Source: Alphaproteobacteria bacterium
GTDB lineage: Bacteria > Pseudomonadota > Alphaproteobacteria > Rhodobacterales > Rhodobacteraceae
DNA length: 47,101 bases
Assembly: GCA_024277955.1 (NCBI GenBank)
Contig: JAJRUE010000054.1
Location: 1 to 47,101, forward strand
Reading direction: 5' to 3'
Shown: piece after piece, positions 16,871-17,894 of the stretch
How positions within the stretch are numbered: the first letter of the stretch is position 1
Layout: the number at the start of each line of letters is the position of its first letter
Notes under the pieces: model-generated
Seen by the model: the letters and a program-made list of their open reading frames with translations, nothing else
Told to the model about the DNA's origin: nothing
Database searches by the model: none
Position numbers and translations under genes: made by a program

Positions 16871-17356
16871 TCAACTAAAACTTCTGTGTGGTCTACTGAT
16901 TTTTTCGGCCGGCGCGGCGTCGCCCATAAGGTAGCGCGGCCCGGTTCCGCGCGCCCCCGCCCGGTCCGCCGGGTTGTAGAGCGCGCAGGTCTTCAGCGAA
17001 AGGCAACCGCAGCCGATGCAGCCGTCAAGCCGGTCGCGCAGCGCGCTCAGCGCGTCGATGCGGGCATCGATGTCGGCGCGGAAACGGCGGCTGATCCGGG
17101 CCCAGTCGGCCTTTGTCGGGGGGCGGTCGTCGGGCAGCGACCGCAGCAGGGCTGCGATATCGGCCAGCGCAAAGCCAAGCTGCTGCGAGATCATCACGAA
17201 AGACAGCCGCCGGATGTCGGCCCGCTGGTAGCGGCGCTGGCCGGCGGCGTTTCGGCCGGGGCGGATCAGGCCCTTTTCCTCGTAAAACCGGATTGCCGAG
17301 ACTGCGAGCCCGGTGCGTTTGGCGATCTGGCCGATCGAAAGCGCGTGTTTCGGCAT
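16871..17356 (-). CDS. soxR: Redox-sensitive transcriptional activator SoxR
   Basis: The 161-residue MerR-family protein has the helix-turn-helix LSIGQIAKRTGLAVSAIRFYEEKGLIRPGRN and wing GQRRYQRADIRRLSFV, a dimerisation helix, and the [2Fe-2S] cluster motif with Cys113, Cys116, Cys118 and Cys124 (CIGCGCLSLKTC), the spacing seen in E. coli SoxR. The oxidised cluster activates target promoters in response to redox-cycling compounds. The start MPKHALS is 21 bases from a perfect SoxR operator at 17378-17395, so soxR and the divergent VOC gene probably share this control region. Confidence 0.95.
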   Translation of the reverse strand: MPKHALSIGQIAKRTGLAVSAIRFYEEKGLIRPGRNAAGQRRYQRADIRRLSFVMISQQLGFALADIAALLRSLPDDRPPTKADWARISRRFRADIDARIDALSALRDRLDGCIGCGCLSLKTCALYNPADRAGARGTGPRYLMGDAAPAEKISRPHRSFS

Positions 17357-17373
17357 CTGGGGGCTTCTGGCTA

Positions 17374-17404
17374 TTGACCTCAAGTTAACTTGAGGAATTA
17401 CAAG
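17374..17404 (+). promoter_or_regulatory. SoxR-dependent promoter with perfect 18-bp operator
   Basis: A -35 element TTGACC (17374-17379) and a -10-like TACAAG (17399-17404) are 19 bases apart, the overlong spacing typical of MerR/SoxR-activated promoters. The spacer holds the perfect palindrome CCTCAAGTTAACTTGAGG at 17378-17395, the same as the well-known enterobacterial soxS operator. It points toward the VOC gene at 17441 and lies just upstream of soxR. Confidence 0.88.
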
Positions 17405-17440
17405 TGATTCGTCGGTATTTCAATGAGGAAAGGATATGAA

Positions 17441-17827
17441 ATGGCTGCAGGACGGATTGAGCATGTGAACGTCACGGTGAGTGATCCGCAGGCGACGGCG
17501 GCGATGCTGGGCGACGTGTTCGGCTGGAAGCTGCGCTGGCAGGGTGATGCGATTTCGGGCGGGTTCACGGTGCATGTGGGCACGGATGAAGACTACATTG
17601 CCGTCTATTCCGGCCCGTCGGGCCGGCAGACGCCGGCGCAGGACAGCTATGCGCAGCTGGGCGGGTTGAACCATGTGGGGGTGGTTGTGGACGACCTGGA
17701 GGCTTGCGAGGCGCGGGTGCGTGCGGCGGGGTTTTCGCCGCGCAACCATGCGGACTACGAGCCGGGGCGGCGGTTCTATTTTCACGACGGCGACGGGATC
17801 GAATACGAGGTGGTGAGCTACGGCTGA
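17441..17827 (+). CDS. VOC (glyoxalase/bleomycin resistance) superfamily protein
   Basis: The 128-residue protein shows the paired beta-alpha-beta-beta-beta repeats of the VOC fold: RIEHVNVTVSDPQATAAMLGDVFGWKLRWQGD in the first half and LNHVGVVVDDLEACEARVRAAGFSP ... RRFYFHDGDGIEYEVVSY in the second. Metal-ligand candidates are His8, the second-half His (LNHVG) and Glu in IEYEVV. The substrate is unknown. The start at 17441 has an AGGAAAGGA site; an ATG six codons upstream overlaps that site. It is directly behind the SoxR-type promoter, so redox-responsive expression is inferred. Confidence 0.88.
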   Translation: MAAGRIEHVNVTVSDPQATAAMLGDVFGWKLRWQGDAISGGFTVHVGTDEDYIAVYSGPSGRQTPAQDSYAQLGGLNHVGVVVDDLEACEARVRAAGFSPRNHADYEPGRRFYFHDGDGIEYEVVSYG

Positions 17828-17841
17828 GGTTTGAAAAAGGC

Positions 17842-17894
17842 GACGCCTTGCGGCGTCACGAGATTGATTAGCGCCCGCCTTTTCAGGCGGGCGC
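17842..17894. terminator. Two hairpins after the VOC gene
   Basis: GACGCC/GGCGTC (17842-17857) is a small stem with a TTGC loop, and GCGCCCGCC/GGCGGGCGC (17871-17894) a strong 9-bp stem. Neither has a long T tract, so intrinsic termination is likely but not certain. Confidence 0.45.

Follow-up and report, generated by a model that had tools for sequence, protein, structure and literature searches.

The gene that faces soxR in the 47,101-nucleotide stretch of Rhodobacteraceae DNA analyzed here (the window, taken at its full length) encodes a protein of the VOC superfamily, and its promoter sequence, together with comparison among relatives, predicts with high confidence that it is under SoxR control. 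The region 16871-17827 is a soxR/target divergon in which the VOC gene replaces soxS: the locus is ordered soxR, operator, VOC gene, and the VOC gene occupies the soxS position. The sequence-only reading had proposed that a SoxR operator drives the VOC gene, and that proposal is strongly supported by the co-occurrence of soxR and the VOC gene among relatives, by their conserved divergence, by the retention of the SoxR box where the two genes are unlinked, and by its loss where soxR is absent. The same reading had named a VOC gene, not soxS, as the first gene behind the operator, and this also holds (128 amino acids, 17441-17827, plus strand, PF00903). The divergent neighbor soxR was missing from that account; because it is the immediate divergent neighbor of the operator, soxR very likely also answers to this site, as a second target that regulates itself.

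Operator and promoter between soxR and the VOC gene

The features of the locus are as follows.

16871..17356, minus strand: soxR, 161 amino acids, divergent from the VOC gene (TIGR01950, 1e-55, above the cut-off; PDB 2zhg, 4e-40)
16985..17020, minus strand: [2Fe-2S] ligand motif CIGCGCLSLKTC (C-X2-C-X-C-X5-C) of SoxR, residues 113-124, read from the sequence
17374..17379, plus strand: -35 element TTGACC of the VOC promoter (TTG at that offset in 61/62 relatives, TTGA in 57/62)
17378..17395, no strand assigned: SoxR operator, the perfect 18-bp palindrome CCTCAAGTTAACTTGAGG (exact match)
17399..17404, plus strand: -10 element TACAAG, 19 bp past the -35 element (TA at the first two positions in 50/62 relatives)
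17426..17433, plus strand: AGGAAAGG, likely the ribosome-binding site of the VOC gene (read from the sequence; 7 bp ahead of the ATG at 17441)
17441..17827, plus strand: VOC-superfamily protein, 128 amino acids, with the candidate metal triad H8, H78, and E123 (PF00903, 3.6e-11; PF13669, 4.5e-9)

The palindrome CCTCAAGTTAACTTGAGG is the same 18-mer as the published Escherichia coli SoxR box (PMC4411124), and it overlaps the -35 element. The spacer of the VOC promoter is 19 bp long (17380-17398), giving the arrangement TTGACC-19-TACAAG around an exact SoxR box; the box is thus placed between the -35 and -10 elements, at the 19- to 20-bp spacing that characterizes a SoxR-controlled promoter. The second position of the -10 element is A in all 62 relatives. 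In an alignment with the E. coli K-12 soxS promoter, the 24 consecutive bases ACCTCAAGTTAACTTGAGGAATTA were identical, bearing out the earlier remark that an exact palindrome with a 19-base spacer is arranged here as in that promoter.

A site between -35 and -10 elements is a layout common to the MerR family, and the operator could in principle belong to another regulator of that family or be a palindrome that arose by chance. Such an origin has a negligible probability, given that the match to the SoxR consensus is exact, that 100 shuffles of the window gave no match to the palindrome at up to 3 mismatches, that a bona fide soxR is adjacent, and that box and soxR occur together across genomes. 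From base composition, ~6e-6 exact copies would be expected per genome. A search of the whole genome for further operators, also proposed in the sequence-only reading, returned 17378-17395 as the sole site in 3.29 Mb at up to 3 mismatches, and the chance palindrome was ruled out on the shuffles together with this search. The degenerate asymmetric pattern TTGANCTMAANNNNNNTTKAG, allowed up to 1 mismatch, again found a single site in the 3.29-Mb genome. The assembly is a draft in 349 contigs, with contamination estimated at 7%, and SoxR boxes too divergent for the search patterns could have escaped detection. Since the operator is the only recognizable SoxR site in the genome, soxR and the VOC gene appear, from sequence searches, to make up the whole direct regulon.

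For soxR, the SoxR equivalog model TIGR01950 gave 187.4 bits against a curated cut-off of 116.9, and the solved E. coli SoxR (PDB 2zhg) matched the product at 4e-40. All four cysteines of the cluster were kept in 153/153 aligned relatives, and the genome carries no second soxR besides 16871-17356. At the positions equivalent to Lys89 and Lys92 of E. coli SoxR, the window's SoxR has Ala83 and Ala86, the position being variable among relatives. In Pseudomonas aeruginosa SoxR, alanines there go with low superoxide sensitivity and direct sensing of redox-active compounds; Ala83 and Ala86 are only a hint that the window's SoxR may likewise sense such compounds directly.

soxR, the VOC gene, and the SoxR box among relatives

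Rhodobacteraceae were sampled with 150 genomes, at essentially one per genus; 64 carried the VOC gene and 67 carried soxR. Of the 150, 62 had both genes, 2 the VOC gene only, 5 soxR only, and 81 neither (Fisher's test, 2e-33, a statistic that ignores phylogeny). Only one further species of the window's own genus was in the sample, and it had neither soxR nor the VOC gene (G060). The two genes lay on one contig in 52 of the 62 genomes, in every case divergent and with the matched regions 86-327 bp apart; they were on different contigs in the remaining 10. An adjacent divergent soxR was found at 71 of 80 named VOC loci, including those of Ruegeria, Sulfitobacter, Loktanella, Aliiroseovarius, Roseibium, Pseudovibrio, and others. 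The pairing reaches other Alphaproteobacteria beyond the Rhodobacteraceae: in a class-wide sample of 289 genomes, all 11 VOC-bearing genomes had soxR, and a further 16 had soxR without the VOC gene. The soxR-VOC divergon was also present in one genome outside the class (G448). The soxR matches of four genomes, G058, G370, G284, and G245, were reported with one stop codon each (L073, L237, L238, and L239).

The box TTGACCT(C/A)AAGTTA(A/G)(C/G)TT(G/T)AG(G/A)AATTA was found upstream of the VOC gene in 62/62 soxR-bearing Rhodobacteraceae, at no more than 100 bp from the VOC start in 54 of them; each of the 62 boxes outscored all 100 shuffles, and the geometry was the same. The weight matrix used for scoring was trained on these 62 sites, after a first pass with the E. 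coli consensus alone. Applied to 27 further loci, including a few from genomes that had served before, the matrix recovered a box in all but one (26/27); the locus without a box holds a remote homologue (33% identity) with no adjacent soxR.

The genomes in which the two genes have separated bear directly on whether the operator serves soxR autoregulation only, with the VOC gene as an unregulated bystander. The operator begins just 21 bp upstream of the soxR start codon, as such a role would have it. However, the -35/-10 pair faces the VOC gene, and the VOC gene has its own SoxR box in 10/10 genomes in which soxR lies elsewhere, with the distant soxR carrying its own copy in most of these. No such box was found upstream of the VOC gene in either soxR-less genome, G110 or G124; the count is thus 62/62 VOC genes where the genome has soxR and 0/2 where it does not. 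The bystander explanation is accordingly very improbable, and soxR-only autoregulation was ruled out by the box at unlinked VOC genes. The neighboring cysS is kept next to the VOC gene in G110 and G124 and in the unlinked genomes G067, G089, and G098, which indicates that the same gene, not a paralogue, is being compared. In G110 (L127), the sequence ~23 bp ahead of the VOC gene reads TTGATTTGCATTTAAGTTTAG / TTGATTTGCATTTAAGTTTAGGGAAG, at most a degenerate trace, its score being equalled by 1 of 100 shuffles; TTGATTTGCATTTAAGTTTAGGGAAG resembles a decayed SoxR box in this soxR-less genome but is suggestive only. Where soxR is kept, the box persists whatever the location of the genes, and where soxR is lost, the box decays, a pattern close to a natural experiment on control of the VOC gene by SoxR. 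A different rearrangement was seen in G386 (L218/L249), where the two genes lie side by side in convergent orientation, each with its own SoxR box, and both sites have survived.

cysS was found near the VOC gene at 45 loci, in the same orientation as the VOC gene in all 45. A VOC-cysS operon was considered, and cysS was taken as a neighbor instead, in view of the 263-bp gap between the two genes in the window and of the other genes that follow the VOC gene elsewhere; Ruegeria sp. TM1040, for example, which has the same divergon (TM1040_RS04190, soxR; RS04195, VOC gene), has a hypothetical gene and greA there. Because no terminator was found on the plus strand between the VOC gene and cysS, the VOC transcript might read through into cysS. 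A hairpin lies between the two genes at 17840-17859, followed by a T run on the minus strand only.

Genomes of the class that have soxR without the VOC gene usually have a box beside soxR that points to another gene, the alternative targets including MFS pumps, DoxX, and a metallo-beta-lactamase-fold protein. Among some Rhodobacteraceae, a RidA-family protein or DUF1330 faces soxR; in one that has no VOC gene (G095, L132), the gene divergent from soxR and behind the SoxR box encodes a RidA-family (endoribonuclease L-PSP) protein. In another genome (G415), the VOC gene lies elsewhere and soxR faces an FMN reductase. Within another alphaproteobacterial family, a different VOC protein stands behind a SoxR box, divergent from soxR (L242, G334), which suggests repeated recruitment of VOC proteins as SoxR effectors. 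In Agrobacterium, atu5152 is reportedly a SoxR target. A 20-kb stretch of the Agrobacterium At plasmid pAtC58 had one strong SoxR-box match (L254:10392, minus strand), and the gene behind this box, within the stretch examined, was not a VOC gene. Downstream of it lies a hydrophobic 135-amino-acid open reading frame (L254, 9903-10310) that is absent from the PLSDB gene table and that may, as a guess, be atu5152.

Fold, candidate metal site, and predicted role of the VOC protein

The VOC protein scored 43.9 bits with the glyoxalase-clan Pfam model PF00903 against a gathering threshold of 20.6, and its AlphaFold monomer model (pLDDT, 91) has the VOC fold. Foldseek matched the model to many VOC structures, among them TnmS3, FosX, GloA2, and L-DOPA dioxygenase, at ~20% identity. 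His8, His78, and Glu123 are invariant in 64/64 relatives, as are the aromatic residues W29, W33, Y52, Y106, F112, Y113, and F114. A three-ligand His, His, Glu pattern is known for FosA/FosX and for extradiol dioxygenases. The VOC protein shares with FosA/FosX its fold and may share these three ligands, which can be aligned to equivalent strand positions; it differs in its ~20% identity and in the absence of any fosfomycin-resistance (Fos) family among its NCBIfam matches. The sequence alignment with FosA is weak, and H8/H78/E123 are a candidate triad drawn from sequence alignment together with the monomer model.

Given that SoxR would be its trigger, the likeliest role of the VOC protein, judged from sequence and model and slightly favored overall, is that of a metal-dependent enzyme inactivating the redox-active or electrophilic compound that induces it. 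The suggestion in the sequence-only reading that the protein modifies a redox-active small molecule is a reasonable one on the same footing, because the candidate metal triad is invariant and the fold resembles those of FosX and TnmS3.

The fold class also holds non-enzymatic antibiotic-binding proteins, TnmS3 and TioX. The main rival, under the same regulation, is that the VOC protein could instead be a sequestration protein for redox-active compounds, like TnmS3, BLMA, and the mitomycin-binding protein. The best Foldseek match is indeed the tiancimycin-binding protein TnmS3 (E value, 1.6e-8; TM score, 0.72; 19% identity), a small single-chain VOC protein whose structure is also available with riboflavin, and many aromatic residues are invariant in the window's protein. 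TnmS3 is not known to be under SoxR, and it sequesters its ligand and does not convert it. To our knowledge, sequestering VOC proteins usually lack the metal positions, and the invariance of the H, H, and E positions in 64/64 relatives argues against this role, which we regard as unlikely.

A glyoxalase-type enzyme, acting under the same regulation on methylglyoxal or another endogenous carbonyl that arises from redox stress, is less probable still. It would agree with the VOC fold, with the presence of GloA2 among the close fold matches, and with a weak match to the GloA profile, but that match scored only 22 bits, and the model's cut-off is 165. The position that aligns with the second metal ligand of glyoxalase I is Ala54 in 64/64 relatives, leaving the four-ligand H, E, H, E pattern incomplete. 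Glyoxalase I itself was excluded by the model score and the ligand pattern.

For the favored reading, a metal-dependent inactivating enzyme under SoxR, the following sequence of events is proposed. One SoxR dimer would occupy the operator that separates soxR from the VOC gene, and in its reduced form it would keep the over-long 19-bp VOC promoter inactive, while occupancy of the operator just upstream of soxR would restrict the synthesis of SoxR itself. A redox-active compound would oxidize the [2Fe-2S] cluster, upon which SoxR would untwist the promoter and switch on the VOC gene directly, with no SoxS relay; the VOC protein, through His8, His78, and Glu123, would then inactivate the inducing small molecule. 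Activation and autorepression are carried over by analogy from the SoxR literature, including work on Stenotrophomonas maltophilia soxR-mfsA, and the enzyme activity and its substrate are the weakest part of what we infer.

Comparison with known SoxR systems and implications

The architecture of the SoxR divergon is already known, and it is the VOC protein as effector that was not found in the literature searched. The E. coli soxR-soxS divergon has the identical operator, the 19-bp spacer, a shared intergenic region, and soxR on the opposite side; its target, however, is the AraC-family activator SoxS, whereas the target here is a VOC gene, with no relay and one genomic site. S. maltophilia soxR-mfsA is a direct analogue and provides an experimental precedent, with a single box, a 19-bp spacer, activation of the target, and repression of soxR (PMC4411124). 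There, too, soxR stands head-to-head with a single effector; the effector is an MFS efflux pump in that species and a VOC protein here. The SoxR regulon of Streptomyces coelicolor comprises six targets (a transporter, oxidoreductases, a monooxygenase, and an epimerase), with no VOC protein listed, and resembles the present case in the direct control of small-molecule-handling enzymes without SoxS (PMC4146615). No published link between SoxR and a VOC protein was found in the papers covered by the literature search, and an earlier report may exist. The main text of a paraquat proteome study of Dinoroseobacter shibae makes no mention of a glyoxalase (PMC8007024).

Because the soxR-VOC wiring recurs across the family, the VOC gene is very probably the main defense of this marine-type bacterium against redox-active chemicals. 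Tentatively, and as a possibility that we consider somewhat short of probable, the Rhodobacteraceae and related Alphaproteobacteria may possess a one-effector SoxR circuit, the sole direct output of which would be a new metal-dependent VOC family that destroys the natural product or quinone being sensed. If true, this would be a self-contained sense-and-destroy module. The early understanding of SoxR came from soxS, and the cataloguing of SoxR targets in non-enteric bacteria is still under way; the divergon described here would give a large and ecologically important marine family a single, sharply defined SoxR effector, making the role of SoxR testable through one gene. A VOC family that otherwise has no annotation would also gain a physiological trigger, and the range of substrates to consider would narrow to redox-active small molecules.
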